Positions 18,879 to 35,003 of a DNA stretch of 64,000 nt are shown here, in pieces. The DNA is from Microbacterium sp. Gd 4-13 (GTDB taxonomy: Bacteria; Actinomycetota; Actinomycetes; Actinomycetales; Microbacteriaceae): NCBI RefSeq assembly GCF_003095395.1, contig NZ_QEIJ01000005.1:62001-126000 (forward strand), read 5' to 3'. The translations under genes and the position numbers were made by a program. Positions within the stretch are counted from its first letter, which is position 1, and each line of letters begins with the position of its first letter. A model generated the notes under the pieces. It saw only the letters and a list, made by a program, of their open reading frames with translations, was not told the DNA's origin and did not search any database.

Positions 18879-19046
18879 CTCGCCGCTTTCCGGCGCCGCG
18901 GGAACGCCTTCCGCTGAGTGGAAAGGAGGGGCGGATGCTGCGGCCCCTCCGACGTACGTTGGATGCGGCGATCGGCACTCCCCGCGATCGCTGACAACGA
19001 CCGCGCCGACGCGGTGCGGTCGGCACGGCTGAGATCGAGGACGACG

Positions 19047-20777
19047 ATGCCCGAACTGCGCAGCAACCTGCCTCCCACCTCCGCTCTGGGAATCGCCCGG
19101 CGCGCCCATTGGGTCTCGCTCGGGATCCCCGTGTCCGACCTGCGCAAGCCGAAGGTCGCGATCGTCAACACCTCGTCGGAGCTCGCCGCCTGCTACGCCC
19201 ACCTCGACGAGATCGTCCCGGTGCTCAAGGAGGAGCTCCGCGCGCAGGGGATGCTGCCGTTCGAGATCCGCACGACCGCTCCGAGCGACTTCGTCACCAG
19301 CGCCGGTCGGGCCGGGCGCTACATCCTGCCCAGCCGCGACCTCATCGTCAACGACATCGAGGCGGCCGTCGAGGGCGCGAAGCTCGACGCGATGATCTGC
19401 CTCAGCTCGTGCGACAAGACCACGCCCGCGCACCTGATGGCCGCCGGGCGCCTGAACATCCCGACCGTCGTCGTGGCGTGCGGCTACCAGCACTCGGGCC
19501 GCGCCGAGGGGCGCGAGGCCGACGTCGAGGAGGTCTTCCTCCTCGCGGCGAAGTCTGCCGTCACCGGCGAACCCGTCGACGACCTCGAAGAACTCGCCGA
19601 CGACGCGATCCTCGGCCCCGGCGTCTGCGCCGGGATGGCCACCGCCAACTCGATGCACGTCGTGGCCGAGGCCCTCGGTATGGCCGTGCCGGGATCGACG
19701 CCGGTGCGCGCGAACAGCGAACGCATGTGGGATGCCGTGCGTCGCTCGGCCGCGGCGCTGGCCGACCTGGTCGAGCGCGATGTGCGCCCGCGCGACATCA
19801 TCACGGCCGGGTCGATCCAGAACGCCGTGCGGGCCATGCTCGCCGTCGGAGGCTCGATGAACACGATCAAGCACCTCCAGGCGATCGCGGTGGAGTCGGG
19901 GATCGACGTCGACGTGTGGGAGGCGTTCCGGGTGCTCGGACGCCAGACCCCCCTCCTCGCCTCGGTGCGCCCCAACGGCCCCGCGCTCGTGGAGGACTAC
20001 GAAGACGCCGGCGGCGCGGCGACGATGCTCCGCGAGCTCCGCCCCCTGCTCGACCTCGGTCGGCTCACCGTGACCGGACAGACGATGGGCGAGGCGCTGG
20101 AGTCCGCGGCCCCCGCGGACGGCATCGTCATCCGCTCCCTCGACCACCCCTTCGGCACCGACCCGGCGATCTCGGTGCTGCGCGGCACGCTCGCCCCCGG
20201 CGGCGCGGTCGCCAAGCGTCCGGTCCCCGACCCCGGCCCCCACCGCTTCACCGGTCCCGCTCGCGTCTTCGCCAACCGCGAGGAGGCGATCGACGGGATA
20301 TCCAGCGGGCGTCTGCGCGAGGGCGACGTCGCCGTCATCCGGGGCATCGGCGTCTCCGGAGCGCCCGGGATGGGACTCACCTCCGCCTTCATCTTCGCCC
20401 TGCACGCACGCGGTCTCGCCGACAGCGTCGCGCTCGTCACCGACGGTCAGTTCAGCGGCCTGGTGAACCAGGGCGTCTCCGTCGGCGAGGTCTCCCCCGA
20501 GGCCGCGGCCCCCGGCGCTCCGCTCGGTCTGGTCAGAGACGACGACGTGATCGACATCGATCTCGCCGAGGGCCGGGTCGACCTGCTCGTCGATCCCGCC
20601 GAGCTGGCGGCGCGCCCGCCGTACTCGCCCCCCGTCGAGCGCGACTCCGGCGGCGGGATGCTCGACCAGTACGAGCAGCTGGTGCAGCCCCTCTCGTGCG
20701 GCGCCGTCCTGTGCGCCCGCCCGGGGCGCAGCACCTGCGAGAAGACCCCCGAACAGCGAACGAAGGAAACGGTATGA
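19047..20777 (+). CDS. IlvD/Edd-family dehydratase (catabolic type)
   Basis: The 576-aa protein starts at ATG 19047. It has the iron-sulphur cysteines of the dihydroxyacid/6-phosphogluconate dehydratase family: AACYAHLDE, SSCDKTTPAH and GPGVCAGMATANSM, with GGSMNTIKHLQAIA and, near the C-terminus, DGQFSGLVNQGVSVGEVSPEAA. The family dehydrates vicinal diols of sugar acids or of branched-chain precursors. This copy is paired with an FAD oxidoreductase rather than with ilv genes, so a sugar-acid or other catabolic role is likelier than isoleucine-valine synthesis. An unusual C-terminal extension of about 35 residues contains two more cysteines. Confidence 0.85.
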   Translation: MPELRSNLPPTSALGIARRAHWVSLGIPVSDLRKPKVAIVNTSSELAACYAHLDEIVPVLKEELRAQGMLPFEIRTTAPSDFVTSAGRAGRYILPSRDLIVNDIEAAVEGAKLDAMICLSSCDKTTPAHLMAAGRLNIPTVVVACGYQHSGRAEGREADVEEVFLLAAKSAVTGEPVDDLEELADDAILGPGVCAGMATANSMHVVAEALGMAVPGSTPVRANSERMWDAVRRSAAALADLVERDVRPRDIITAGSIQNAVRAMLAVGGSMNTIKHLQAIAVESGIDVDVWEAFRVLGRQTPLLASVRPNGPALVEDYEDAGGAATMLRELRPLLDLGRLTVTGQTMGEALESAAPADGIVIRSLDHPFGTDPAISVLRGTLAPGGAVAKRPVPDPGPHRFTGPARVFANREEAIDGISSGRLREGDVAVIRGIGVSGAPGMGLTSAFIFALHARGLADSVALVTDGQFSGLVNQGVSVGEVSPEAAAPGAPLGLVRDDDVIDIDLAEGRVDLLVDPAELAARPPYSPPVERDSGGGMLDQYEQLVQPLSCGAVLCARPGRSTCEKTPEQRTKETV

Positions 20778-22126
20778 CCTCTTCCACCATCCACCTTCCC
20801 GCGCGCGCGGTCCCGGTGATCGGCGAGTACGACGTGGTCGTGATCGGGGGCGGGCCCGCGGGGCTCCTCGCGGCGACCGCCGCTGCCCGAGCGGGCATGT
20901 CGACACTGCTCGTCGAGCGGTACGGATTCCTCGGCGGCGCGGGCACGATGGGTGGGCTCAGCACGTTCTGCGGTCTACACGCCAGGGTCTTCGGCGAAGA
21001 CAAGCTCGTCATCCACGGGTTCGCCGACGAGCTCCTCGACCGCCTCACCGCGCTGGATGGCTTGAACACCCCTCACCTGACGATCGAGAACCGCATCATG
21101 GCGGTGTCGTTCGACATCTCGGCGTACAAGATCGCGGCCGACGAGCTCGTTCTCGCCGCCGGCGCCGAGCTGCTCTTCCACGCGACGGCGGTCGATGTGG
21201 TGATGTCCGACGAGAAGACGATCGACGCCGTCGTGCTGGAGTCGAAGTCGGGCCGCAGCGCCGTCCGCGCCCGGTTCTTCATCGACGGATCGGGCGACGC
21301 CGACATCGCCGCCTGGTCGGGGGCACCCTTCGAGCGCTCCCCCGAGTTGCTCTTCCCGTCGCTGATGTTCCGCATCAACGGCGTGCACCCCGAGGAGGCC
21401 GGCGAGGCGTGGAAGACCATCCGGCGCCTCATGGAAGACGCCGAGGCCGCGGGCACGCACTCGTTCCCCCGCAAGAAGCCGATCGTGCGTCCGCAGCGCA
21501 ACCCGCTCGAGTGGCGTTCGAACCTTACCCAGCTCCACAACGACGACGGCACCGCCGTCGACGGCACCGATGTGCGCCAGCTCACCCACGGCGAGATCCA
21601 GGGGCGCCAGCAGGTCAAGGAGACGTTCGCCTTCATCCGCGAGCGCACCCCCGGTTTCCAGGACTCGTACGTCGTCGACATCGCGCCCCAGATCGGCATC
21701 CGCGAGACGCGTCGCATCGTCGGCGGCTACCAGCTGACCCAGGACGACGTGCTCGGCAACGCCGACTTCGACGACACGATCGGGGTCAACGGGTGGCCCG
21801 TCGAGGCGCATGTCGCCGGTGACGTCGAGTTCCGCTTCGCCCCCGAGGGCAGCCGCGGCTTCCACCAGCTGCCGTACCGCATGATCGTTCCCCAGCAGGT
21901 CGGCAACCTCCTCGTCGTCGGCCGATCGGCATCGATGACGCAGGGCGGTCAGTCGTCGGGCCGGGTGACGGGCCCCTGCTTCGCGATGGGCCAGGCCGCC
22001 GGCACGGCCGCCGCGCTCGCGCTCTCGGGCGGCACGGATGCTGCGGACATCGACGTCTCCGCGCTGCAAGCGCAGCTCGCGACAGACGGCGCCTACCTCG
22101 GCACCGACCTCACCGTCGCCGTGTAG
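20774..22126 (+). CDS. FAD-dependent oxidoreductase (FAD_oxidored family)
   Basis: The 450-aa protein overlaps the dehydratase gene by ATGA. It has an N-terminal dinucleotide-binding fold (YDVVVIGGGPAGLLAATAAARAG, then LLVERYGFLGGAGTMGGL) and the C-terminal FAD contacts NLLVVGRSASMTQGGQSSGRV and CFAMGQAAGTAAAL typical of the FAD_oxidored group. FIDGSGDADIAAWSGAPFE is another family segment. Homologues are often annotated as FAD-dependent oxidoreductases of unknown substrate. The tight coupling implies it acts on the same compound as the dehydratase. I see no signal peptide. Confidence 0.85.
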   Translation: MTSSTIHLPARAVPVIGEYDVVVIGGGPAGLLAATAAARAGMSTLLVERYGFLGGAGTMGGLSTFCGLHARVFGEDKLVIHGFADELLDRLTALDGLNTPHLTIENRIMAVSFDISAYKIAADELVLAAGAELLFHATAVDVVMSDEKTIDAVVLESKSGRSAVRARFFIDGSGDADIAAWSGAPFERSPELLFPSLMFRINGVHPEEAGEAWKTIRRLMEDAEAAGTHSFPRKKPIVRPQRNPLEWRSNLTQLHNDDGTAVDGTDVRQLTHGEIQGRQQVKETFAFIRERTPGFQDSYVVDIAPQIGIRETRRIVGGYQLTQDDVLGNADFDDTIGVNGWPVEAHVAGDVEFRFAPEGSRGFHQLPYRMIVPQQVGNLLVVGRSASMTQGGQSSGRVTGPCFAMGQAAGTAAALALSGGTDAADIDVSALQAQLATDGAYLGTDLTVAV

Positions 22127-23211: not shown

Positions 23212-23637
23212 CTACGCGGCTCGACGCAGGATCGTCACCACGCCGTGGTCGCCGTCCACGCGCACCCAGTCGCCGGTGCGGATCGCGGCCACGGGGTCAG
23301 GGCTGCACTCGACCACGCTGGGAACGCGGGTGACGATGGCTCCGAGCACGGCCTTCGTCGTCATGACGTTGAACACCATCGCGCGCGGGGCCGTGCCCAT
23401 GAGGCGAGTGCTCTGGAAGAAGCCCGACCAGCCCGACGAACCCTTCGCGCCGGGGAAGACGAGGATCTTGTCGGTGAAGCACACGCCGAACAGCTCGTGG
23501 CGCGGCTCGATCACCGTGCCCTTCGACGGGTCGATACCCCCGAACCCCGAGATCGTCTCCGTCGAGACGAGGGCCTCACCCTCGACGACGCCGGCGACGA
23601 TCGGTCGACCGGTGAACGTCTCCACGACGGTGGTCAT
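23212..23637 (-). CDS. Aconitase X small (swivel) subunit
   Basis: The 141-aa protein is the DUF126 swivel domain of aconitase X. It contains the conserved serine loop (ISGFGGIDPSKGTVIEP), the GKSSGWS-like core as FPGAKGSSGWSGFF, and VDGDHGVVTI near the end. In two-subunit AcnX enzymes this domain closes over the active site of the large subunit. It starts at ATG 23637, overlapping the large-subunit stop by 4 bases, so the two are made together. Characterised AcnX enzymes dehydrate cis-3-hydroxyproline or mevalonate 5-phosphate; which, if either, applies here is unknown. Confidence 0.88.
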   Translation of the reverse strand: MTTVVETFTGRPIVAGVVEGEALVSTETISGFGGIDPSKGTVIEPRHELFGVCFTDKILVFPGAKGSSGWSGFFQSTRLMGTAPRAMVFNVMTTKAVLGAIVTRVPSVVECSPDPVAAIRTGDWVRVDGDHGVVTILRRAA

Positions 23638-24917
23638 CGCGAGAGCTCGCCGCGCCAGGTGCCCGTGACCGCAGCATCCACGCACTCCTCGAGAGTGCCG
23701 AACCAGCCCTCGATGCCCAGGATGGCCGGCAGGTAGTGCACCTGCTTGGCCGAGTCGGTCGCCATCACGCGGGTCCCGTCGGGGGCGGCCTTCGACATCG
23801 CGGGACACGAGTCGGTCAGAACGCGCCCGCCGGCCCGTTCGATCGCGCGGGTGTAGCCGCTGCGATCGGCCATGGTGCGGATCGCCGCCGGCGTCATCAC
23901 CCAGAGCTCGGTGTCGGAATGGATGCGGCGTCCCTCGAGGCGTCGGGCGACGCGCTCGAGCTGGTCGAGCGAGGCGTGCGGACAACCGAGGATGATGAAG
24001 TCGACGTCCGTCGATTCGCCCTGGTCGTTGAGGGTCTCGTAGACCAGGCGGCGTTCGGCCTCGCCGTACACGAGCGGCTCCGGGACGGCGGCACCGCCGA
24101 ACGCGGCCTCGAGCGACGTCGCCTCGGGCGTCACGCCCGGGATGTGGTAGATCTCGACGCCGCCGGCGGTGGCCGTCGCGGCACCGAAGTGCTTGAGGTC
24201 GGCCAGATCGGGGTTCACGAGCTCGCCCGTGATCACGGGCCGCCCCTCCTGGACGGCGTCGCCGACGAAGTACCCCAGCATCCCCCACTCCTGGAAGTCG
24301 TCGACGGGTACGCCCGCGACGAGATGGTGCGTGCCGAAGCGGTTCTCGGGGAGATGGTTTCCCCAGTAGGGGATGCGGCCGGTCAGCCCGGCGGCCCCGG
24401 TGGAGGCGCCCCCTTCGCAGTTCGTCCGCGCCCCGAGCACGGAGTTGCAGTAGACGACCGCCGACGACTCCATCCACGCGCAGTGCTCGCCCCGCACCGG
24501 GATGTTGCCCACCTGGTAGGGGGTGCAGGTGGCGAGGATGTTCACGCCGCGTTCGCTGAAATACGACTCGGCATCGCCCTGCAGCACGATCGACTGCTCG
24601 GGATAGGACGTGAGTCCCGACGCATCCTTGCCGAAGCCGTGCTGCAGTTGGCACGTCGGCACCTTCATGCGAGGAATCTCGATGTCGTCGTCGCAGTCGA
24701 GGTTGATGACCGCGAACGACTTCGCCCAGCCGCCCTCCTCGACGAGTTTCGCCTTGGCCGGCGAGGGCTGGGTCATGGTGCCCGCGACGTTGCGCGTCTC
24801 GCACAGCCGCTCCGCACCGAGGGCCTCGCCGTAGCGGATCAGCAGATCCATCGCGGCGGCCACCGCTCCGCCCTCGGCGCCGTCGCGCATGCCCTTCTCC
24901 TCGTCGGTGAGCAACAC
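23634..24917 (-). CDS. Aconitase X catalytic (large) subunit
   Basis: The 427-aa protein is the AcnX catalytic domain (DUF521). Recognisable segments are LTDEEKGMRDG at the N-terminus, YSERGVNILATCTPYQVGNIPVRGEHCAW-type residues around 165-190, NSVLGARTNCEGG and GCPHASLDQLERVARRL. The cysteines in these motifs are candidates for the iron-sulphur site. I place the start at GTG 24917, 5 bases past the permease stop; a TTG at 24914 is possible. It follows an SsuA-type ABC transporter in one operon, which implies that the imported compound, or a product of it, is dehydrated here. Confidence 0.88.
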   Translation of the reverse strand: MLLTDEEKGMRDGAEGGAVAAAMDLLIRYGEALGAERLCETRNVAGTMTQPSPAKAKLVEEGGWAKSFAVINLDCDDDIEIPRMKVPTCQLQHGFGKDASGLTSYPEQSIVLQGDAESYFSERGVNILATCTPYQVGNIPVRGEHCAWMESSAVVYCNSVLGARTNCEGGASTGAAGLTGRIPYWGNHLPENRFGTHHLVAGVPVDDFQEWGMLGYFVGDAVQEGRPVITGELVNPDLADLKHFGAATATAGGVEIYHIPGVTPEATSLEAAFGGAAVPEPLVYGEAERRLVYETLNDQGESTDVDFIILGCPHASLDQLERVARRLEGRRIHSDTELWVMTPAAIRTMADRSGYTRAIERAGGRVLTDSCPAMSKAAPDGTRVMATDSAKQVHYLPAILGIEGWFGTLEECVDAAVTGTWRGELSR

Positions 24918-24922
24918 GGGCG

Positions 24923-25720
24923 TCAGGCCGTCGCTTCGCGCAGGCCGTAGACCGACTCGTGCCAGGGGATCACGAAGCGCTTGGCCTCGTTGACGATCAG
25001 GTAGAGCACGAGCCCGATGAGCGAGAGCAGGATGATGAGTGCGAACGTCCTCGCGGCATCCAGAGAACTCATCGCCCTCACCACCATCGCCCCGAGCCCC
25101 ACGCTGCCGCCGAGGTACTCTCCGACGATCGCGCCGATCGTCGCGAGCACGATCGCGACCTCCATCCCGGCGAAGAGGTAGGGCTGAAGGCTCCGCATCT
25201 CGAGCTGGAGGAAGGTCTGCGCGCGGCTCGCGCTGATGCTGCGCATCACCTCGCGCTGCCCCTGCTCCACCGAGCGGACGCCGAGCAACACGTTGAGCAT
25301 GACGGGGAAGAAGGCCAGGAGCGCGGCGAGCAGCACCTTCGACGTGATGCCGAAGCCGAACCAGATCACGAAGAGCGGGATGAAGGCGACCTTCGGTGCG
25401 ACCTGGGCCGCGACGATCAGGGGACGGATGCTGACCTCGAGCCACGGGAGCTTGCCCAGCACCACACCGACGACGATCCCGCTGACGACGGCGATCGCGA
25501 ACCCGACGATGATCTCGAGGACGGTCACCCCGACCTCTTCCCAGGTGCCGCCGTCACCGAGGAGCACGACGAGGGCCTCGCCGACGGCGAGCGGCGGCGG
25601 GAAGACCAGCGGATTCACCTCGAGCGAGGTCACGAGGATCTGCCAGACGGCGATGATGACGATGATGAGGGCGGGCGTGACGATCCACGGCAGCAGCTTC
25701 ATGATCCGGGGCTTGGGCAT
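24923..25720 (-). CDS. ABC transporter permease (SsuC/TauC/ThiX type)
   Basis: The 265-aa membrane protein has about six hydrophobic helices and the BPD_transp_1 coupling loop (EVMRSISASRAQTFLQLEMRSLQPYLFAG). NPLVFPPPLAVGEALVVLL and APKVAFIPLFVIWFGFG are typical of permeases that import sulfonates, nitrate, pyrimidine-like or other small acids. It sits 1 base after the ATPase gene and 5 bases before the aconitase X large subunit. Confidence 0.88.
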   Translation of the reverse strand: MPKPRIMKLLPWIVTPALIIVIIAVWQILVTSLEVNPLVFPPPLAVGEALVVLLGDGGTWEEVGVTVLEIIVGFAIAVVSGIVVGVVLGKLPWLEVSIRPLIVAAQVAPKVAFIPLFVIWFGFGITSKVLLAALLAFFPVMLNVLLGVRSVEQGQREVMRSISASRAQTFLQLEMRSLQPYLFAGMEVAIVLATIGAIVGEYLGGSVGLGAMVVRAMSSLDAARTFALIILLSLIGLVLYLIVNEAKRFVIPWHESVYGLREATA

Positions 25721-25721
25721 G

Positions 25722-26555
25722 TCAGTGCTCCTCGTCGAGGTCGTGGCGGAGGGCCCGCACGATGTCGTTGAACTCGGGCATGGTCTGCAGATCCACCGAA
25801 CGGGGCTTGGGGAAGTCCGCGGGAAGGATCTGACGGATGCGTCCGGGGCGCGGCGTCATGTGCACGACCCGGTCGGCGAGGAAGACCGCCTCGGGGATGT
25901 CGTGGGTGACGAACACCACCGTCGAGTTCGTCTCCAGGACGATGCGCTGCAGCTCGAGGTTCATGCGCTCGCGCGTCAGCGCGTCGAGGGCCCCGAACGG
26001 CTCGTCCATCAACAGCAGGTCGGGCTTCGTGCTCAACGCTCGCGCGATGGCCGCGCGCTGGCGCATGCCTCCTGAGAGCTCGCGCGGGTACGACTTCTCG
26101 AACCCGGCGAGACCGACCAGCTCGGCCAGCTCGCTCGCGCGGCGCCGCCGCTCCGTCTTGCCGACGCCGCGGATCTTCAGCGGCAGCGCGATGTTGTCGA
26201 GCACCGAGAACCACGGGAAGAGGTTGCTCTCCTGGAAGACGAAACCCAGCTTCGTCACCGCGGAGCTGTCGACGCGTCCGTCGCGCCACAGCTCCTTTCC
26301 GTCGACGGCGATGGTGCCCGCCGTCGGCGGCAGGAGCCCCCCGATCATGCGCAGCAGCGTGGTCTTGCCGCATCCGGAACGCCCGATGAGGGCGACGAAC
26401 TCCCCTCTCTGGATCGACAGGTCGACCCCCGACACGGCGTGGGTCGTGCCGTTCTTGGTGTGGAAGTCGCGTCCGACGCCCTGGATGTGCAGGCTGGGGA
26501 CGGCGGTGGCTCCGCCCGTGGGGGCCGTGGTGGTGTCGAGCGTGTCGTTTCTCAT
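25722..26555 (-). CDS. ABC transporter ATP-binding protein (SsuB/TauB type)
   Basis: The 277-aa protein has one ABC domain: Walker A GRSGCGKTT, Q-loop FVFQESNLFPW, signature ELSGGMRQRAAIARAL, Walker B LLLMDEPFGALD and the H-loop VVFVTHDIPEAVFLADRV. The FPW and EPFGALD features mark the SsuB/TauB/NrtD group. I prefer the ATG at 26555 because GAGAGG lies 7 bases upstream; ATGs at 26561 and 26570 are alternatives. It energises the permease next to it. Confidence 0.88.
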   Translation of the reverse strand: MRNDTLDTTTAPTGGATAVPSLHIQGVGRDFHTKNGTTHAVSGVDLSIQRGEFVALIGRSGCGKTTLLRMIGGLLPPTAGTIAVDGKELWRDGRVDSSAVTKLGFVFQESNLFPWFSVLDNIALPLKIRGVGKTERRRRASELAELVGLAGFEKSYPRELSGGMRQRAAIARALSTKPDLLLMDEPFGALDALTRERMNLELQRIVLETNSTVVFVTHDIPEAVFLADRVVHMTPRPGRIRQILPADFPKPRSVDLQTMPEFNDIVRALRHDLDEEH

Positions 26556-26610
26556 CGGCATGCCTCTCATTCGTCGAGTGCCGCGGGGGTCGGCGTGGAC
26601 TGCGGGCGGA

Positions 26611-27699
26611 TCAGCCGGCGGGGAGGTAGTCGTTCGTGATCCACTGGAGCGGGTCCTGCCCGCCCTCGACGAAACCGGCCTTCGTGTAGACCTCGTAGGT
26701 GTCCGACCAGGCGTCCATGTCGTTCTCGAGCAGCGAGACGCTTCCGTCGGGGTCGACCCAGGTGCCGGTCACGTACTCGGCGAGCGCCGCCCGCGCGACG
26801 GTGTCGTCCTGAAGCGCGGGGAAGTTCCAGTCGCCGCTGTCGCGCATGATCTGCAGCACGTTGTCGAAGTTGTTCTCCGCGTCGTCGATGACGAACTGGG
26901 TGGCTTCCTTGATCGCGGTGAGGAACAGCTCGATCTCCTCGACCCGTTCCGGGTTGTCGAGGTTGGACTGCGTGGTGATCCACGTCTGGATGTCGGGCTG
27001 GTCGACGAGTCCGACCTGCTCGATGACCGCGTCGTCGTTCTGCTGCTCGATCGCGAGCGAGGTGTCGAGGCTGACGATGTAGCCCGCGAGCTGTTTCTGG
27101 CGCACGACCTCGAGGGTGGCGGCCGTGACGGGGACGGCCTGGCGGGTGACCGAGTCCTGGTCCACGCCCGCCTCGTCGAGGGCGAGGTTCAGCATCTTCT
27201 CGCTCGTCCCGCCGATCGAGCCCATGCCGATGGTCTTCCCCGACATGTCTGCGGGATCGACGATCGGGTCCTCCGTCGTCGAGACGACCCGCAGATTCGA
27301 CCGATAGGCCATCGTGCCCACCGCGGTGATCGGCTGACCGCTCTCCATGGCGGGGAAGACGTCGACCGTGCTGGCGCGGGTGATGGTCGTCGCCCCGCCC
27401 ACGAGCGACTGGATCGCGGCGGCCGTGCCCTGCACGGGCTGAAGGTCGACGTCGAGCCCGTTCTTCTCGAAGTAGCCGCCCGAGGAGGCGAACATCTCGG
27501 GCGTGAAGCTGAACGACTCCAGCGGCAGGAAGGTGACGACCGTCATCTCTTTGAGCTCGCCGTCGGAACCGGAGGGGCTCTGCCCTCCTCCGCCCGAGCA
27601 ACCGGCGAGGGCGAGGGCTCCGGCAGCGATCAGGGCCGCCGTGGCACGGATGCCGCGCCGTGCGCGCGAGGGGGCCGTCGAGGTCTGTGCGGTGATCAT
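26611..27699 (-). CDS. ABC transporter substrate-binding lipoprotein (NMT1/SsuA-like)
   Basis: The 362-aa protein starts at ATG 27699 behind ACAGGAG. It has a lipobox ALAGC with Cys34 as lipid anchor. The mature part is an NMT1/OMP-like binding protein: FTPEMFASSGGYFEKNGLDVDL, VGGATTITRASTVDVFPAMESGQPITAVG and DMSGKTIGMGSIGGTSEKML are characteristic. Relatives bind sulfonates, thiamine precursors, nitrate or small carboxylates. It begins the ABC-aconitase X operon. The region upstream has an inverted repeat TTTTCAC/GTGAAA that may be an operator. Confidence 0.87.
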   Translation of the reverse strand: MITAQTSTAPSRARRGIRATAALIAAGALALAGCSGGGGQSPSGSDGELKEMTVVTFLPLESFSFTPEMFASSGGYFEKNGLDVDLQPVQGTAAAIQSLVGGATTITRASTVDVFPAMESGQPITAVGTMAYRSNLRVVSTTEDPIVDPADMSGKTIGMGSIGGTSEKMLNLALDEAGVDQDSVTRQAVPVTAATLEVVRQKQLAGYIVSLDTSLAIEQQNDDAVIEQVGLVDQPDIQTWITTQSNLDNPERVEEIELFLTAIKEATQFVIDDAENNFDNVLQIMRDSGDWNFPALQDDTVARAALAEYVTGTWVDPDGSVSLLENDMDAWSDTYEVYTKAGFVEGGQDPLQWITNDYLPAG

Positions 27700-27882: not shown

Positions 27883-28137
27883 TCAGTGGGCGTCGGCGGG
27901 CAGCACGACGTGGTCGAGGCTGTAGGGCGTCGGCTCGAGGGCCGCGGCCATGATCGCCTCCATCACCGGCTGCGGCACGAGGCAGTCGGCGCACGCGCCC
28001 TCCGTGGCGTCGATGCGAACGACGATCTTCTCGTCGTCGGCCGGCGTCCACGACAGCACGTAGCCGTCGGTCGCCATCATGTCGGTGAACTGCTTCAGCG
28101 CAGCATCCACCGATGCCGCTTCGGTCGGGTCTGTCAT
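27883..28137 (-). CDS. Small CxxC protein (NifU-C-like) of unknown function
   Basis: The 84-aa protein is cytoplasmic, with no signal or membrane segment. Its centre reads VVRIDATEGACADCLVPQPVMEAIM, where CADC and the following helix resemble the C-terminal NifU scaffold fold, though the match is short. A redox or metal-binding role is plausible. The ATG at 28137 lies one base after the stop of the 368-aa gene (28139), so the two are coupled. It belongs with the 368-aa and UGSC genes and may be a third subunit or electron carrier for them. Confidence 0.65.
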   Translation of the reverse strand: MTDPTEAASVDAALKQFTDMMATDGYVLSWTPADDEKIVVRIDATEGACADCLVPQPVMEAIMAAALEPTPYSLDHVVLPADAH

Positions 28138-28138
28138 G

Positions 28139-29245
28139 TCACTCTCCGATCCTGCTGTACGAGTACGGGAACTCCCGGGGCGGGTTGAGCGTGAACACCT
28201 CGACGATCGCCGAGACGCCCGCGTTGTTCGCGCCGGCGACCATGATCTGCACCGAGGTGCGATGGCTGAGCGAGGGCACGACATCGGGCTCGTCGGTGGA
28301 GCTGGCCGAGTCGGGCATCGAGTCGGGATGATCGGATGCGAGGCGCCACCGGGTCTTGTGCGACAGGGCGTCCTTGCCCACCGCGACGAGCTCGTCGCGG
28401 GTGCGGTGCGCGTTGTCGAAGATGAAGTCGCGCAGGTCGTCCTTGCTCCAGCCGGCCGAGGCGAACACCTCGGCGTGCTCGGGAGTGAGCACGAGAAGGG
28501 CGCTGGTGTACTCGTGGATGAGCGCACCCGTGCGCCGGATGGTGTCGACGTAGTCCAGGGCGAGCTGCTCGGGAACCATCGTGTGCCGCGCCTCGATGTG
28601 CACGACCGAGCGGATCACGTAGGCCGTGACCACGCTGTCGGACGCGTCGAAACCGTACTCGGTGTGCAGCGGGGGCCAGGGGCTCTGCTCCTCGTTCTCG
28701 CCGATGCACGAGGAGTACTTCGACGGGTTGCCCTGCGTGGCCTGGTCGAGCTTGTGCGGGTGCAACCCGAAGACGTTGATGCAGCCGAGCCGGATCGCAC
28801 GACCGATCGTGGCGTTCGAGCGGGTTCCCGATCCGAAGATGTTCCCCTCGCTGTTCAGCCCGATCTCGTGACGGATCGGTCCGTTGACCACGAGGAAGGG
28901 GGCGGTACCCGTCGTCGACTGCCAGATGCCGCGCGCCGGGTGCGGCTCCTTCGCGATCGCCTCCCATGCGGCGACGACGACGGGGAAGTACTCGGGCTTG
29001 CACCCGGCGAGCGCCGCATTGATGGCGGCCAGCTTGATGGTGAGGTGCCGGTTCAGGTGGGTGATCGTGAAGATCACCTCGGCGGGATCGCGGTCGACCG
29101 CCGCGAGGAAGGGAGCCAGCGACGACTCGGTCACCGGAACGACCGGCAGCCCGTCGGTCCACTCCTGGTCCCAGTAGTAGTCGAGGATCTCGTGGATGCG
29201 GTCGATGTCGACGTCGGGGATGTTCCCGAGGATCTGCGCGGTCAT
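28139..29245 (-). CDS. Uncharacterised partner protein of the UGSC family gene
   Basis: I recognise the pattern of this 368-aa protein from an uncharacterised family but can give no function. Visible conserved segments are WTDGLPVVPVTE near residue 30, NAALAGCKPEYFPVVVAAWEA around Cys82, PFLVVNGPIRHEIGLNS, and FGSGTRSNATIGRAIRLGCINVFG around residues 137-160. The Gly/Asn-rich middle suggests a phosphate- or cofactor-binding site. There is no signal or membrane segment. It sits 1 base from both the UGSC gene upstream and the 84-aa gene downstream, so all three are probably made in fixed proportion and work together. Confidence 0.75.
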   Translation of the reverse strand: MTAQILGNIPDVDIDRIHEILDYYWDQEWTDGLPVVPVTESSLAPFLAAVDRDPAEVIFTITHLNRHLTIKLAAINAALAGCKPEYFPVVVAAWEAIAKEPHPARGIWQSTTGTAPFLVVNGPIRHEIGLNSEGNIFGSGTRSNATIGRAIRLGCINVFGLHPHKLDQATQGNPSKYSSCIGENEEQSPWPPLHTEYGFDASDSVVTAYVIRSVVHIEARHTMVPEQLALDYVDTIRRTGALIHEYTSALLVLTPEHAEVFASAGWSKDDLRDFIFDNAHRTRDELVAVGKDALSHKTRWRLASDHPDSMPDSASSTDEPDVVPSLSHRTSVQIMVAGANNAGVSAIVEVFTLNPPREFPYSYSRIGE

Positions 29246-29246
29246 C

Positions 29247-29786
29247 TCACCCCTCCAGACCGAGGATGCGGACGACCTCGGGCACGGCGACGAGAGCGCG
29301 CTCGCGCACCTCCGGCGCCGACAGGCTGGCCATCGGGTGCTGCACCGCGTGGAAGTCGAACCCGGGGAACCCCTGGACGGAGGCCATCGCCCGCCCCGAC
29401 ATCAGGAACGAGTCGGAGGTGATCGCCACGGTGGGGATGCCGGCCCGCTCGAAGAGGATGCCGTCGGCGACGGTCGCGGCGCTGCACGAACCGCAGTCGC
29501 CCACAGCGGTGATCACGACGTCGCACTCGGCCACGATCCGGTCGAGGAGCTCCTTCTTCACGGGGGTGCCGAAGTAGTCCTTCGTGTACAGCCGGGATTC
29601 CCCCGCACCGTAGTGCTCGCGGAGCTCGGTGACGATGTTCTCCAGCAGCATGGTGGAGTTCGGCTTGGTGTTGTCGAGCAGGCCGATCGTCAGGCCTTTG
29701 AGGCTCACCGGTCTGGGCGACAGGGTGTCGTCCTGCGTGTTCTCGGCCGTTCCCGTGGGGTCCAGCAGAAGTTCCATGTTCGCCAT
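29247..29786 (-). CDS. UGSC-family protein, cysteine form
   Basis: The 179-aa protein carries the CGSC motif (Cys98 and Cys101, in VGDCGSCSAATVADGILFERAG) at the place where UGSC-family members have selenocysteine. Both codons are TGC, so no recoding is needed. LKGLTIGLLDNTKPNSTMLLE at residues about 30-49 is the other conserved region. The UGSC family is known from selenoproteome surveys, and its reaction has not been settled; the CxxC form suggests thiol redox chemistry or a thiol-bound intermediate. It is the first gene of the minus-strand set and diverges from the CoA operon across a 179-base spacer. Confidence 0.8.
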   Translation of the reverse strand: MANMELLLDPTGTAENTQDDTLSPRPVSLKGLTIGLLDNTKPNSTMLLENIVTELREHYGAGESRLYTKDYFGTPVKKELLDRIVAECDVVITAVGDCGSCSAATVADGILFERAGIPTVAITSDSFLMSGRAMASVQGFPGFDFHAVQHPMASLSAPEVRERALVAVPEVVRILGLEG

Positions 29787-29965: not shown

Positions 29966-30433
29966 ATGACAGAGACACGCACGGCGACCCCCACGACGAT
30001 GGCGGAGTTGCCCGCGCTGGCCGGAGCAGAGCTCGGCCCGTCATCGTGGCGGGAGGTGCCGCAGGCCGACATCGACACCTATGCGGTGCTGACCGGAGAC
30101 GACAACCCGATCCACGTCGACGAGGTGCGCGCCGCATCCTCTCCCTACGGCGGTCGGATCGCTCACGGCATGCTGACGCTCAGCATGGTCGTCCTCCACC
30201 TCCGCGAGATCTACCGCGTCACCGACGCCGGCATGGGCATCGTGTACGGGTTCAACCGCATCCGCTTCCCGAACGCGGTGCGCTCGGGCGCCCGCATCCG
30301 CGTCGGCGGCACCGTGTCGCAGGTGGAGGAGATCACGGGCGGATACCAGGTGACCCTCGAGCTGGTCTTCGAAACGGAGGGCGAGACGAAACCCGTCTGC
30401 GTCGCCGAACTCGTCCTGAGGCACTACCGGTGA
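29966..30433 (+). CDS. MaoC-like (R)-specific enoyl-CoA hydratase
   Basis: The 155-aa protein starts at ATG 29966 behind CGAAGGAG. It is a single hot-dog domain with the hydratase motif DDNPIHVD (Asp and His as catalytic pair) and GGRIAHGMLTLSMV. Such enzymes add water to enoyl-CoA double bonds. It is the first gene of a five-gene overlapping operon with an SDR, an acyl-CoA ligase, an amidohydrolase and an acyl-CoA dehydrogenase, which together read as a beta-oxidation-like route for a small organic acid. Confidence 0.87.
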   Translation: MTETRTATPTTMAELPALAGAELGPSSWREVPQADIDTYAVLTGDDNPIHVDEVRAASSPYGGRIAHGMLTLSMVVLHLREIYRVTDAGMGIVYGFNRIRFPNAVRSGARIRVGGTVSQVEEITGGYQVTLELVFETEGETKPVCVAELVLRHYR

Positions 30434-31347
30434 GCGCCGTCCGCCTGGACGGGCGCGTCACCATCGTCACCGGCGCGGGACGCAGCCTCGGCCGCGCCTA
30501 CGCGATCGCCCTCGCCGACGCCGGATCGGCCGTGGTCGTGAACGACGTCGACGCCGAGAGCGCCGAGTCGACCGTCGCGCAGATCGTGGAGCGGGGCGGT
30601 CGCGCGGTCAGCTCGATCGGAGCGGTCGGACCCGCCGAGACCGCCGACGCCCTCGTCGCTGCGGCCGTCGACACCTACGGCCGTCTCGACGCGCTCGTCG
30701 CCAACGCCGGAGTGCTCCGCGACCGCGTGCTGTGGAAGATGTCGGATGCGGAGTTCGACGCGGTGGTCTCGAGCCACCTGCGCGGAACCTTCACCTGCGG
30801 GCGGGCCGCCGCGACGTACCTGCGCGAGCAGGGCGAGGGCGGTCGGCTCGTGCTCATCGGGTCGCCCGCCGGCCAGTTCGGCAGCTTCGGCCAGACGAAC
30901 TACGCGGCGGTCAAAGCCGGACTGGTCGCGATGGCCCGCACCTGGTCGCTCGAGCTCGCTCGAGCCGGGATCACGGCCAACGCCGTGGTGCCGACGGCGC
31001 TCTCGCCGATGACGGCGACCATCCCGGCGTACGCCGAGCTCTACGAGCGCTACCTCGCGGGCGAGCCCATCCCGGCCTCGTTCCGGCACGACAACGCGCT
31101 CGGGACTCCGGAGGACGTCGCCCCGCTGATCGTCTGGCTGGCCTCGGCCGACGCCGGCGACGTCACCGGTCAGGCGATCGGCATCGGCGGCGACAAGCTC
31201 ACCCTGTACTCGCACCCCGCCGAGCTCGACGCCGCATACTCCGACGGCGGATGGGATGCGGCGGGGATCGCCGACACCTGGCGGTCGACCTTCTCCTCGC
31301 AGGCGCAGCACTCCGGCCCGCCCGTGCGGAAGGCGGTGGGCGCATGA
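30430..31347 (+). CDS. Short-chain dehydrogenase/reductase
   Basis: The 305-aa protein starts with GTG 30430, sharing GTGA with the MaoC stop. It is a classical SDR: cofactor loop TGAGRSLGRAYA, LVANAGVLRD, catalytic Ser in VLIGSPAG and the Tyr-Lys pair in TNYAAVKAG. A C-terminal extension of about 50 residues after GGDKLTLYS resembles the SDR domain of peroxisomal multifunctional enzymes. It probably oxidises the 3-hydroxyacyl-CoA made by the preceding MaoC hydratase. Confidence 0.88.
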   Translation: MSAVRLDGRVTIVTGAGRSLGRAYAIALADAGSAVVVNDVDAESAESTVAQIVERGGRAVSSIGAVGPAETADALVAAAVDTYGRLDALVANAGVLRDRVLWKMSDAEFDAVVSSHLRGTFTCGRAAATYLREQGEGGRLVLIGSPAGQFGSFGQTNYAAVKAGLVAMARTWSLELARAGITANAVVPTALSPMTATIPAYAELYERYLAGEPIPASFRHDNALGTPEDVAPLIVWLASADAGDVTGQAIGIGGDKLTLYSHPAELDAAYSDGGWDAAGIADTWRSTFSSQAQHSGPPVRKAVGA

Positions 31348-32948
31348 CGTCGGCTCCGCACTACAGCGACCTCTGGCAGGGAATCGCCCGCGCCGCCCCC
31401 GACCGCCCCGCCGTCATCAGCCGCGACGGCACGGTGACGTGGTCGCAGCTCGCCGCCGAAGCGGGCGCGCTCGCGACGCATCTGGTCGATCGTGGCCTGA
31501 AGGTCGGAGACGCGGCAGCGCTCCTGCTCTACAACCGCACCGAGTACCTCGCCTTCACCTGGGCGTGCCTCGCCGTCGGGGTCTCGCCCGTGGCGATCAA
31601 CTACCGCTACCGTGCCGGCGAGGTGCGCGAGCTCGTGCTCGACTCGGAGGCGCGGGTTCTGCTCACCACCCGCAGCCTGGGCGAGCTGGCCCGCGAGGCC
31701 GTCACAGGACTCGACGTCGAGATCATCGAGGTCGACGACGGCTCGCCCGCCACGGCCGGCGCGCTCGATTACGCCGATGTCGTCGCCACGGGCGGGGCGC
31801 TCCCCGAGAGCGCACCGCGGGGGGCCGAGTTGCGGCTCTACACGGGCGGCACGACGGGGTCGCCGAAAGCCGTCGTGTGGGATCTCGATACGCTGCTCGT
31901 CGCGCGACGGCAGTCGACGTGGGGCCTGCTCGGAATCACCCCTCCGGAGGATCTCGCCGAGGCGGTTCAGATCGCGGTCGACCCCGCCACTCCCCGGATC
32001 GTGACCCTCCCCCTGACGCCGCTCCTGCACGGCACGGCGCAGTCGACGACGATGGGAACGATGGCGCTCGGCGGCACCGTGGTGCTGCATGCCGCTGCGC
32101 GCATGGACATGGAGGAAGCCGCCGACCTCATCGCGGAGTTCGACGTCTCGCGCCTCATCGTGGCCGGAGACGCCCTCGCCCTGCCCCTGGCCGAGACCGT
32201 CGAACGTCGCGGCACGGGCCTGCCCGGAGTGCGGTGGATCCTGAGCTCGGGAATGCGCTTCAGCGACGACGTGAAACGGCGACTGCACGCCCTGGGCGAC
32301 CTGGCCATCGTCGACATGCTCGCCTCGAGCGAGGGCGGCCCGTTCGCGTTCGGAGTGACGCACGGGGAGGACGAACTGCCCGCCCGGCTCGTGCTCACCC
32401 CCGGCGCGGTGCTCCTCGACGACGACCTCGCCGAGATCCAGGCCGATGCGGGGGCTCTCGGCATCCTGGCCTTCCGCGGCATCCTTCCGAAGGGCTACTA
32501 CCGCGATCCCGCGAAGACGGCCGAGACGTTCCCCACCATCCGCGGCAACCGCTACATCATGCCCGGAGACTGGGCACGCGCGAGGGGCGACGGCTCGGTC
32601 GAGCTGCTCGGGCGCCTCAGCGCGGTCGTGAACACCGGCGGCGAGAAGGTCTTCCCCGCCGAGGTCGAGGAGGCCCTCCTGTCGCACCCGACCGTCGACG
32701 ACGCCGTCGTCTTCGGCCTGCCCGATCGCCGCTTCGGCGAAGTCGTGAGCGCGATGGTCTCCCCGGTGCCCGGGCGCGAGATCGACGTCGAGGAGCTGCG
32801 GACCTACCTCGACGAACGTCTCGCCGGCTACAAGAAGCCCCGGCACGTCTTCGTGCGGGCGAGCCTCGAACGGTCGATGACCGGGAAGGTCGAGCTCGCC
32901 CGCGTCAAACAGGACGCGGAGCGCGAGCTGGCGGAGGCGGTGCGATGA
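31344..32948 (+). CDS. AMP-dependent acyl-CoA synthetase/ligase
   Basis: The 534-aa protein overlaps the SDR gene by ATGA. It is an ANL-family adenylating enzyme: phosphate-binding loop RLYTGGTTGSPKAVVWD, core region LASSEGGPFAF (where most relatives have YGxTE), hinge GRLSAVVNTGGEKVFPAEVEE and the C-terminal lysine in SMTGKVELARV. It should convert an organic acid to its CoA thioester and start the CoA part of the pathway. The substrate is unknown. It is distinct from the ligase at 41062-42660. Confidence 0.88.
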   Translation: MTSAPHYSDLWQGIARAAPDRPAVISRDGTVTWSQLAAEAGALATHLVDRGLKVGDAAALLLYNRTEYLAFTWACLAVGVSPVAINYRYRAGEVRELVLDSEARVLLTTRSLGELAREAVTGLDVEIIEVDDGSPATAGALDYADVVATGGALPESAPRGAELRLYTGGTTGSPKAVVWDLDTLLVARRQSTWGLLGITPPEDLAEAVQIAVDPATPRIVTLPLTPLLHGTAQSTTMGTMALGGTVVLHAAARMDMEEAADLIAEFDVSRLIVAGDALALPLAETVERRGTGLPGVRWILSSGMRFSDDVKRRLHALGDLAIVDMLASSEGGPFAFGVTHGEDELPARLVLTPGAVLLDDDLAEIQADAGALGILAFRGILPKGYYRDPAKTAETFPTIRGNRYIMPGDWARARGDGSVELLGRLSAVVNTGGEKVFPAEVEEALLSHPTVDDAVVFGLPDRRFGEVVSAMVSPVPGREIDVEELRTYLDERLAGYKKPRHVFVRASLERSMTGKVELARVKQDAERELAEAVR

Positions 32949-33835
32949 GCGCGGGCTGGCCGGGGTTCGACCCCGCGAAGGTGTCGATGATCGACGTGCA
33001 CGTGCACGTGTCGATCGACGAATCGGGACGCACGGCCTCGCCGCCCGCGCTCACCGAGGCGATGGCGGCCTACTTCAAGAGCAGCGAGAAGCCGCGCACC
33101 GTCGATCAGACCGCGGAGTACTACCGCGCCCGCAACACCGGCGCCGTCGTGTTCACCGTCGATGCGACCACCAACCTCGATCATCGCCCGAACAGCGTCG
33201 ACGACCTGGTCGCGGGTGCGCGAAGGAACTCCGACGTGCTGATCCCCTTCGGAAGCGTCGATCCGCTGCAGGGCGAAGCCGCCGTCGAAGAGGCGAGACG
33301 CCAGGCGATAGAACTCGGCGTGCGCGGGTTCAAGTTCCACCCGTCGGTGCAGGCGTTCGACCCGTCCGACCCCGCCTACATCCCGCTCTTCGCCGCGATC
33401 GAAGAGCTCGGGCTGCCGATCCTCGTCCACACGGGCCAGACCGGCGCGGGAGCGGGGCTCCCGGGCGGATGGGGCTTCCGGCTCAGCCTGTCGAACCCGA
33501 TGCTGCTCGACGACGTCGCGGCGCGGCATCCTCACCTCCCCGTGATCATGGCGCACCCGAGCGTCCCCTGGCAGGACGAGGCGATCTCGATCGCGACGCA
33601 CAAAGCGAACGCGTGGATCGATCTGTCGGGATGGTCGCCGAAGTACTTCCCGCCCGCGCTGGTGCGCGCGGCGCGCACGTACCTGAAGCACAAGGTGCTC
33701 TTCGGATCCGACATGCCTGCGCTCACCCCCGAGCGGTGGCTGACCGACTTCGCGCTGCTGGAGTACCCCGACGACGTGCGCGCGATGATCCTGAAGGACA
33801 ACGCGGTGCGACTCCTGGGCCTCGCGGGTGAGTGA
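32945..33835 (+). CDS. Amidohydrolase-2 family metal-dependent hydrolase/decarboxylase
   Basis: The 296-aa protein overlaps the ligase gene by ATGA. It has the ACMSD-like metal site: MIDVHVHV (HxH), GFKFHPSVQAF, LVHTGQTGAG, MAHPSVPW and FGSDMPALTPERW with the metal Asp. Members hydrolyse C-C or C-N bonds or decarboxylate aromatic and unsaturated acids. Its place inside a CoA operon suggests ring opening, decarboxylation or hydrolysis of a pathway intermediate. It overlaps the acyl-CoA dehydrogenase gene by 8 bases. Confidence 0.86.
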   Translation: MSAGWPGFDPAKVSMIDVHVHVSIDESGRTASPPALTEAMAAYFKSSEKPRTVDQTAEYYRARNTGAVVFTVDATTNLDHRPNSVDDLVAGARRNSDVLIPFGSVDPLQGEAAVEEARRQAIELGVRGFKFHPSVQAFDPSDPAYIPLFAAIEELGLPILVHTGQTGAGAGLPGGWGFRLSLSNPMLLDDVAARHPHLPVIMAHPSVPWQDEAISIATHKANAWIDLSGWSPKYFPPALVRAARTYLKHKVLFGSDMPALTPERWLTDFALLEYPDDVRAMILKDNAVRLLGLAGE

Positions 33836-35003
33836 CGCGGCGACCGACCTGTTCGGCTTCTCCGACCGGCTCTCCCCCGCCGCGCGGGCCAAGCTCGCGG
33901 CGCTGCGGGCGCTCCTCGACGAGCGCGCGCGGCCTCACCTGGCGCAGTGGTGGGAGGACGCCCACTGCCCCGCGCATCTGCGCCGGGAGCTCGCCGCGCT
34001 CGACCTGGAGGACGACCCGGCCGTCGCAGGACCCGACGGAACCCCCGACCCCCTCTACGTCGGTTTCAAGCACTTCGAGTTCGCCCGGTGCGACATGTCG
34101 ATTGGCACGATCTACGGCGGCCAGGTGGGCATGTTCCGCACCGTGGTGCGTGAAGGCGGCTCGCCGGAGCAGGTCGCCCGGTGGGACCCGGGGATCGCCT
34201 CGTTCTCGGTGACCGGATGCTTCGCCCTGACCGAGCCGGAGCACGGCTCGGATGTCGCCGGCGGCATGCAGACCACGGCGACCCGCGACGGCGAGGGGTG
34301 GCGTATCAGCGGTCGCAAGCGATGGATCGGGAACGCGGCCATCTCGGACGTCATCCTCGTCGTCGCCCGCGATGCGTCCGACGGGCGGGCGAAGGTCTTC
34401 CTCGTACCCCGGGAGGCACCGGGGGTCTCGCTCACCGACATCTCGGGCAAGATCAGCCTGCGGATGGTGCGCAACGCCGACATCGAGCTGACAGACGTCG
34501 TGGTTCCGGAGTCGGACCGCCTGCAGCGCATCGACGACTTCGGCGACCTGTCGGCGATCCTCGCGAAGCTCCGGCACGTGGTCGCCTGGAACGCGGCCGG
34601 CCTCCAGGTGGGCGCCTACGAGGCGGCGCTCGCCTACGCCCTCCGGCGCGAGCAGTTCGGCCGGCCGATCGCCGGCTTCCAACTCGTGCAGGAGAAGCTG
34701 GCACGGATGCTGGGAAACGCCACCGCCTCGCTCGCGATGGCGGTGGGCCTCACCGACCTGCGAGAGGCGGGACGCCTGGGTGAGGAGCACGCGGCACTGG
34801 TGAAGATGTGGACGGCGGATCGCGCGCGCGAGACCGTCGCACTCGCGCGGGAGGTGTGCGGGGCGGAGGGCATTCGCGTCGACACCGACGTGGCGCGGAT
34901 GTTCGCCGACGCCGAGGCGCTCTACACGTTCGAGGGCACCCGCGAGATCAACGCCCTCATCGTGGGCCGAGCGGTCACCGGTCTCAGCGCATTCACCCGC
35001 TGA
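33828..35003 (+). CDS. Acyl-CoA dehydrogenase
   Basis: The 391-aa protein starts with GTG 33828 inside the end of the amidohydrolase gene. It is a three-domain flavoprotein: GCFALTEPEHGSDVAGG and the WIGNAAISDVILVVARD strand bind FAD and substrate, RREQFGRPIAGFQLVQEKLARM is the C-terminal FAD contact, and YTFEGTREINALIVGRA carries the likely catalytic Glu, as in the glutaryl-CoA dehydrogenase subgroup. It oxidises an acyl-CoA to the enoyl-CoA. Its stop codon lies within a large inverted repeat that ends the operon. Confidence 0.9.
   Translation: MSDAATDLFGFSDRLSPAARAKLAALRALLDERARPHLAQWWEDAHCPAHLRRELAALDLEDDPAVAGPDGTPDPLYVGFKHFEFARCDMSIGTIYGGQVGMFRTVVREGGSPEQVARWDPGIASFSVTGCFALTEPEHGSDVAGGMQTTATRDGEGWRISGRKRWIGNAAISDVILVVARDASDGRAKVFLVPREAPGVSLTDISGKISLRMVRNADIELTDVVVPESDRLQRIDDFGDLSAILAKLRHVVAWNAAGLQVGAYEAALAYALRREQFGRPIAGFQLVQEKLARMLGNATASLAMAVGLTDLREAGRLGEEHAALVKMWTADRARETVALAREVCGAEGIRVDTDVARMFADAEALYTFEGTREINALIVGRAVTGLSAFTR

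Follow-up and report, generated by a model that had tools for sequence, protein, structure and literature searches.

In a 64-kb window of the Microbacterium sp. Gd 4-13 genome (the whole stretch analysed here, 64,000 nucleotides; NCBI RefSeq assembly GCF_003095395.1, contig NZ_QEIJ01000005.1, positions 62,001 to 126,000 of the forward strand), three adjacent genes encode a member of the UGSC selenoprotein family in its cysteine form, a 368-residue protein (D368) and an 84-residue protein (S84). Judging from sequence comparisons, we tentatively propose, at a probability that we place just short of even, that UGSC and D368 form a two-subunit thiol or selenol reductase, which would be re-reduced by thioredoxin, by S84 or by both, and which would act in a catabolic operon together with an ATP-binding cassette (ABC) importer and aconitase X. 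The three genes are as follows.

29247..29786, minus strand: UGSC, 179 residues, with CGSC at Cys98-Cys101; PF24696 / NF041046; cysteine form of a selenoprotein family
28139..29245, minus strand: D368, 368 residues, with Cys82 in GCKPEYFP (AGC...PEY); without a Pfam or NCBIfam family
27883..28137, minus strand: S84, 84 residues, with its ATG at 28137 and CADC at Cys49-Cys52; judged a divergent domain like the NifU C-terminal domain

The initial annotation of this stretch had described three cysteine-bearing proteins, encoded one base apart and made in fixed ratio, as an undescribed multi-subunit redox or thiol-transfer enzyme. The layout agrees with our coordinates, the single bases 29246 (between UGSC and D368) and 28138 (between D368 and S84) being the sole intergenic bases within the trio. 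The cysteines are also conserved. Among 64 distinct UGSC rows, the first position of CGSC is cysteine in 30 and an in-frame TGA in 31, the remaining three comprising one aberrant sequence (GXDGCA) and two without the motif; the near-invariant Cys82 of D368 is cysteine in 70 of 73 rows; and both cysteines of S84 are invariant in 12 of 12. A fixed ratio of production, on the other hand, is not something that the sequence shows. The gap between UGSC and D368 in relatives, as measured from script-chosen start codons, ranges from an overlap (L024) up to 108 bases (L016), so the one-base spacing is not conserved, amounts to ordinary operon packing and implies no ratio. A multi-subunit thiol enzyme has more in its favour than the spacing from which it was guessed, since the idea can now draw on the common phyletic pattern of the genes in the genus, on pairwise fusions and on thioredoxin reductase genes nearby in several lineages.

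Conservation of the UGSC-D368 pair

Among 296 genomes of the phylum, UGSC was found in 24 (22 over the cut-off), D368 in 23 and both in 22, and every one of the 22 genomes with UGSC over the cut-off has D368. The two genes adjoin each other at 31 of 36 UGSC places, on the same strand, with D368 on either side and within 294 bases; the five unpaired places consist of two sub-cut-off matches and three for which no D368 was found on that contig. D368 is adjacent at every one of the 58 distinct UGSC loci that have 2 kb of flank, a count in which many loci were fetched through D368. Counted from D368, UGSC is adjacent at 20 of the 24 loci of the first search; two others are at contig ends (L009, L022), and the genomes of the two without an adjacent UGSC (L011, L012) encode it elsewhere. 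Pairing was also seen on plasmids, for which 13 of 24 D368-bearing records were examined: UGSC is adjacent in 12 of the 13, a Haladaptatus locus (L176) being without it.

Within the genus Microbacterium, D368 occurs in 18 of 149 genomes and S84 in 17, all of them among the 18. In six other genomes checked (L002, L008, L011, L012, L013 and L015), S84 is not beside D368, yet it is encoded elsewhere in each. The initial annotation held that frequent separation of the genes would speak against a common complex; UGSC and D368 are rarely apart, as their 31 adjacent places indicate, whereas S84 is often unlinked but present in the same genome.

The search for fused versions that had been suggested was productive. 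UGSC and D368 are joined in a 545-residue protein of Variovorax boronicumulans, with ACGSC intact (L174), and in a 573-residue protein of genome G136 (L100). UGSC is joined to a NifU domain in a 271-residue protein of Arthrobacter ERGS1:01 (L169), which passes the Pfam cut-offs of both domains, that of NifU by a narrow margin (27.2 against 27). It could be argued that each of the three proteins is an enzyme in its own right, with no more than a pathway in common, in an ordinary catabolic operon, and the dehydratase and transporter genes of the region do have clearly separate functions. We consider this improbable in view of the UGSC-D368 and UGSC-S84 fusions and because bacteria and haloarchaea alike retain the UGSC-D368 pair amid quite different neighbours.

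A thioredoxin reductase gene, called at a minimum of 35 percent identity and E 1e-20, lies within 2.5 kb of D368 in six of 71 distinct loci (L010, L161, L167, L169, L173 and L175), where about 0.2 loci would be expected by chance on the assumption of two such genes per 4-Mb genome. In L161, which comes from the window's genus, the order is S84, UGSC, D368 and then a 439-residue frame (1399-2718, minus strand) with thioredoxin reductase and thioredoxin domains; in L169 it is trxB, trxA, D368 and the UGSC-NifU fusion. D368 of L175 is split between frames, so this copy may be decayed.

UGSC and its resemblance to glycine and D-proline reductases

The window's UGSC is a full member of its family, passing the cut-offs of both profiles (Pfam PF24696, E 4.7e-66 and 222.6 bits against 25; NCBIfam NF041046, 146.3 bits against 125). 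The family had been named by 2008, together with a UGSC/'Unknown_1' fusion, and was counted among the most abundant selenoprotein families of the Global Ocean Sampling data, with 255 selenocysteine (Sec) sequences and fifth place in the printed table (PMC2398784). A 2026 review lists it among selenoproteins whose functions are largely uncharacterised (PMC13188914). The available excerpts of these two papers report counts, the Sec motif and the fusion to an unnamed domain; neither a partner gene nor a NifU-like protein nor a link to thioredoxin comes up in them, and the literature searched yielded no work on the function of UGSC. The trio is therefore not undescribed as a whole, as had been supposed, but the partner gene, its NifU-like companion and the thioredoxin link appear undescribed in these excerpts.

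Sec and cysteine forms of UGSC are about equally represented, with 27 and 28 of the 58 distinct loci having 2 kb of flank, respectively; in the first search, 6 of 20 relatives have TGA at the Cys98 codon. SelB passes its cut-off in 10 of 23 genomes searched. The window's genome scores below this cut-off, consistent with its cysteine form, and one cysteine-form genome (G303) passes it. On a Paracoccus plasmid (L168, 12359-14134), SelB lies a few genes from D368 and from a UGSC gene that is annotated in two pieces, and the same plasmid also has cysteine desulfurase, TusA and DsrE-like genes.

The AlphaFold model of UGSC (predicted local distance difference test, pLDDT, 89.5) has a sheet of five strands alternating with helices, one of which begins at CGSC. 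Its best structure matches in VIA (Z of 10.7 or less, root-mean-square deviation, rmsd, of about 3 or more) are diverse alpha/beta chains, including one from the methyl-coenzyme M reductase activation complex at Z 10.2. By sequence, UGSC had no match under E 2 among PDB sequences, and its profile had none under 0.07. A thioredoxin-like fold and a redox role were guessed for UGSC in 2008 (PMC2398784, as available in part); no thioredoxin appears among the 50 matches listed in either PDB list, which lends that fold no support. The same observations bear on an explanation that we regard as decidedly unlikely, in which UGSC would depend on thioredoxin as a thiol oxidoreductase for peroxides or protein thiols, D368 would be a scaffold and there would be no catabolic substrate. 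While the CxxC/UxxC motif, the use of Sec, the linkage to thioredoxin and the 2008 guess itself all suit such an activity, the predicted alternating fold does not, and UGSC and D368 recur amid annotated transporters, coenzyme A (CoA) transferases, CoA ester lyases and dehydrogenases. The confinement of D368 to 18 of 149 genomes of the genus also argues against it.

We lean towards regarding as real a homology, suggested by sequence profiles, between UGSC and the Sec domain of GrdB and PrdB. UGSC has six NCBIfam matches, namely its own family, four reductase models and one unrelated binding protein. The reductase models (glycine, sarcosine, mixed and D-proline) match residues 53-124 at E 0.01 to 0.09, and scores fall far under the cut-offs (14.8 against 602.2 bits for TIGR01917, 11.7 against 65.45 for TIGR01918 and 12.2 against 300 for TIGR04483). 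In profile comparisons, UGSC aligned by its Sec position with those of 12 Sec-containing GrdB-like proteins (E 2.7e-4, probability only 41) and of 12 PrdB-like proteins (E 2e-4, probability only 47); the other profile pairs compared gave E 0.2 to 0.42, unrelated pairs being at 0.2 and 0.27. One UGSC gene (G294:C8) is matched by TIGR01918 across the Sec region at E 5.3e-6 and 26.2 bits, which is sub-cut-off; the window's own genome yielded no TIGR01918 match. Neither the GrdB profile nor the S84 profile found anything among PDB sequences, which leaves no solved GrdB relative for a comparison of folds.

UGSC further resembles GrdB and PrdB in carrying UxxC/CxxC at the same place, in a stretch that ends (E)(R/K).GIPT, in the exchange of Sec and cysteine, and in having a separate partner subunit. 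Grd and Prd operons encode a thioredoxin system alongside, as do some UGSC-D368 lineages. Unlike GrdB and PrdB, UGSC is a single 179-residue domain, is accompanied here by the NifU-like S84, and occurs in actinobacteria and haloarchaea growing with oxygen. Full-length, Sec-containing GrdB-like genes occur in 13 of the 296 genomes of the phylum; in a sample of these (L150-L154), the five aligned GrdE-like neighbours share no invariant cysteine, so pyruvoyl formation there is doubtful.

GrdB acts by binding glycine and releasing ammonia, and D-proline reductase by opening the ring (PMC13188914), and an operon with GrdB-like genes has been proposed to cleave the carbon-fluorine bond of fluoroacetate (PMC10838667); GrdB-like proteins may therefore cut more than carbon-nitrogen bonds. 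By analogy with glycine and D-proline reductase, the nucleophilic thiol or selenol would likely come from UGSC, D368 would form the substrate pocket, and electrons would be delivered by thioredoxin or S84. We infer the complex, the electron path, the reductive cleavage and all that is said here of substrates along the following lines. UGSC, as a small alpha/beta subunit, would assemble with D368 into one enzyme. Cys98 (Sec in many relatives) would be the nucleophile, attacking a carbon atom in a small compound, imported and bound with D368, and displacing an amine, oxygen, sulfur or halide leaving group. Cys101 would resolve the adduct to give an oxidised Cys98-Cys101 (or Se-S) bond, which thioredoxin and thioredoxin reductase and/or, in the window's genome, S84 would reduce. 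Import would fall to the NMT1/SsuA-type ABC transporter of the window, and the aconitase-X dehydratase may handle the substrate or the product.

In a wider form, to which we give somewhat less credence, UGSC and D368 may represent a new class of thioredoxin-linked selenol/thiol reductase that parallels glycine and D-proline reductase, has D368 as an unrelated partner and often a dedicated NifU-like thiol protein, operates in haloarchaea as well as bacteria, and reductively breaks a carbon-heteroatom bond of imported carboxylates or sulfonates. The boldest form would have D368 cleave itself before Cys82, between glycine and cysteine, to create a pyruvoyl electrophile. If the proposal is true, the UGSC family would acquire a partner, a probable reductant and a type of reaction, and the cysteine forms found in easily grown bacteria would allow it to be tested without selenocysteine expression.

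Several observations weigh against this proposed reductase. No thioredoxin reductase lies within 2.5 kb of D368 in 65 of the 71 loci, including the close relative L001, and the window gave no thioredoxin or thioredoxin reductase match (tblastn with three reductases and one thioredoxin, E 1e-3). The cysteines are lost in the L100 fusion; the sole D368 genome of the genus without S84 (G440) has a UGSC with GPGATS in place of CGSC; and genome G183 encodes a pair of proteins, each built of two D368 repeats (L101, 157-2148 and 6867-9134), and has no UGSC match. Some relatives thus do without the proposed chemistry. The Sec-form genomes G297, G036 and G300 are without SelB over the cut-off. The similarity of UGSC to GrdB is weak, TIGR01918 matching at only one of the 36 UGSC places, and a comparison of NifU with UGSC over 26 columns around CxxC, probably a spurious control, reached E 8e-4, so the GrdB and PrdB E-values are insufficient on their own. 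In contrast to the partners in glycine and D-proline reductase, D368 is not detectably related to GrdE-like proteins (E 0.42 against five that we take to be such from their position beside GrdB); a relationship to GrdB was likewise rejected (E 0.27). The lineage-dependent neighbourhoods, moreover, imply no single substrate.

Properties of S84 and D368

Judged by profile comparison, S84 is a divergent NifU C-terminal domain and not the new kind of protein that it had been taken for. Its profile matches nineteen NifU domains at E 2e-6 (probability 89, 57 columns) with the CxxC in register, against E 0.25 for an unrelated control; with only three NifU sequences the comparison gave E 0.018 and probability 2.5, and S84 itself has no Pfam NifU match at E 1. 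Among small proteins beside UGSC and D368, those of L098 (35.8 bits) and L093 (30.9 bits) pass the Pfam NifU cut-off of 27, and those of L076 (23.4 bits) and L096 (no match) fail it. S84 thus shares with the NifU domain (PF01106) the position of its CxxC and has two relatives beside UGSC that score as NifU, but it differs in having DGY instead of DGG/HGG, in its sub-reporting Pfam score and in a distribution that tracks UGSC and D368. We propose that S84 is a thiol or iron-sulfur (Fe-S) partner.

S84 was found within 8.5 kb at 18 of 28 cysteine loci versus 2 of 27 Sec loci (Fisher 1.3e-5), counts that may be affected by the derivation of the S84 profile mostly from cysteine lineages. The idea that S84 was gained when Sec was lost was not supported by a tree test (five independent pairs on starred branches, median p 0.625).

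D368 showed no convincing family in Pfam or NCBIfam among 21 members: matches to four Pfam models and to two from NCBIfam came from single members, at E 0.03 or worse, and no model recurred. It has no PDB match by sequence and none under E 0.4 by profile. The predicted structure (pLDDT 77; predicted template modelling score, pTM, 0.80) is likewise without a clear PDB match. Its weak best fold matches are class I fumarases (Foldseek E 2e-3; VIA Z 5.7 over 174 residues, rmsd 5.6), and as VIA Z values under 8 are within the noise of the tool, we assigned D368 neither to this fold nor to that of any other listed protein. In two haloarchaea (L166, L172) D368 genes stand on both sides of UGSC, which, together with the tandem D368 repeats described above, hints at D368 dimers. 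We propose that D368 is a substrate-binding or cofactor-bearing subunit.

The fumarase matches and the NifU-like nature of S84 raise the question of an Fe-S device. S84 might carry or assemble a cluster that UGSC and D368 hold or use, for example to mature or repair aconitase X or the ILVD-type dehydratase, or D368 might itself be an Fe-S hydro-lyase with a class I fumarase-like fold; both aconitase X and ILVD-type dehydratases are encoded in the window. This explanation seems unlikely to us. Class I fumarases use three cysteines, whereas D368 has a single near-invariant one, and its fumarase Z score is noise-level. S84 accompanies UGSC and D368 in four loci that gave no tblastn match to the window's aconitase X, namely L010, L016, L017 and L020 (L016 and L020 being short contigs). 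The first cysteine of UGSC, furthermore, is Sec in many relatives, and Sec is unusual as an Fe-S ligand.

Genomic context and candidate substrates

The remaining features of the region around the proposed reductase are as follows.

26611..27699, minus strand: ABC solute-binding lipoprotein, NMT1/SsuA type (PF09084, E 1.6e-24; start 27699 set by eye)
25722..26570, minus strand: ABC transporter ATP-binding protein (PF00005; best NCBIfam model ProV, then SaoA, both sub-cut-off)
24923..25720, minus strand: ABC transporter permease (PF00528; best NCBIfam model SaoP, sub-cut-off)
23634..24926 (start approximate), minus strand: aconitase X catalytic (separate large) subunit (PF04412, E 1.4e-106, 357 bits)
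23212..23640, minus strand: aconitase X swivel subunit (PF01989, E 2e-22, 79.3 bits)
29966..30433, plus strand: MaoC-like dehydratase, first gene of the divergent operon (PF01575, E 6e-23)
30433..35003, plus strand: rest of the divergent operon, with short-chain dehydrogenase/reductase (SDR) dehydrogenase, adenosine monophosphate (AMP)-forming CoA ligase, amidohydrolase and acyl-CoA dehydrogenase (Pfam)
18918-20777, plus strand: ILVD/EDD-type dehydratase (Pfam)
20807-22123, plus strand: PF12831 flavin adenine dinucleotide (FAD)-dependent oxidoreductase (Pfam)

A gap of 183 bases separates S84 from the next minus-strand gene, that of the solute-binding lipoprotein. In several relatives (L003-L006) aconitase X follows immediately after S84, which argues that it is part of the trio's unit. 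The aconitase X of the window passes both Pfam domain cut-offs on two separate chains, as in the archaeal type II enzyme (PMC8184944, in the part available), and lies far under the cis-3-hydroxyproline dehydratase model (211 against 700 bits). The ILVD/EDD-type dehydratase and the PF12831 oxidoreductase (18918..22123) are possibly part of the trio's catabolic region; by eye, 9 of 58 clustered loci have the same FAD oxidoreductase and 3 have the ILVD dehydratase.

Neighbours of UGSC and D368 vary by lineage, with aconitase X and an NMT1/SsuA-type ABC carrier in Microbacterium, a CoA transferase and a CoA ester lyase in Halorientalis, and tripartite tricarboxylate binding proteins in Variovorax and Acidovorax. 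These differences favour small organic acids or sulfonates of several kinds over one substrate. A ComA-type phosphosulfolactate synthase lies nearby in Arthrobacter (L169, 5701-6489) and in the haloarchaeon Natrinema zhouii (L171, 4856-5323), which hints at sulfonate chemistry.

The ABC transporter genes at 24923-26570 come near the SaoA and SaoP models of a Sec-assisted organometal system, at sub-cut-off scores. In a very improbable explanation, the cysteines of the trio would bind a soft metal delivered by a Sao-like transporter, in the manner of that system. SaoP is the nearest NCBIfam model for the permease and SaoA the second after ProV for the ATPase, as this would lead one to expect, but all Sao matches are below their cut-offs, and SsuA and NMT1 models give the solute-binding protein higher scores. 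The carriers at other loci are tripartite tricarboxylate, tripartite ATP-independent periplasmic (TRAP) or other ABC systems, and no metal gene is among the Pfam-named neighbours, although no search aimed at SaoL was made.

The window's genome measures 3.43 Mb, and the proteins that it encodes here share 97 to 99 percent identity with their counterparts in Microbacterium sp. AG1240 (L001). In Microbacterium elymi (L003, 9339-13878), each of four matches (aconitase X, swivel, binding protein and permease) is split in two, through sequencing error or decay.

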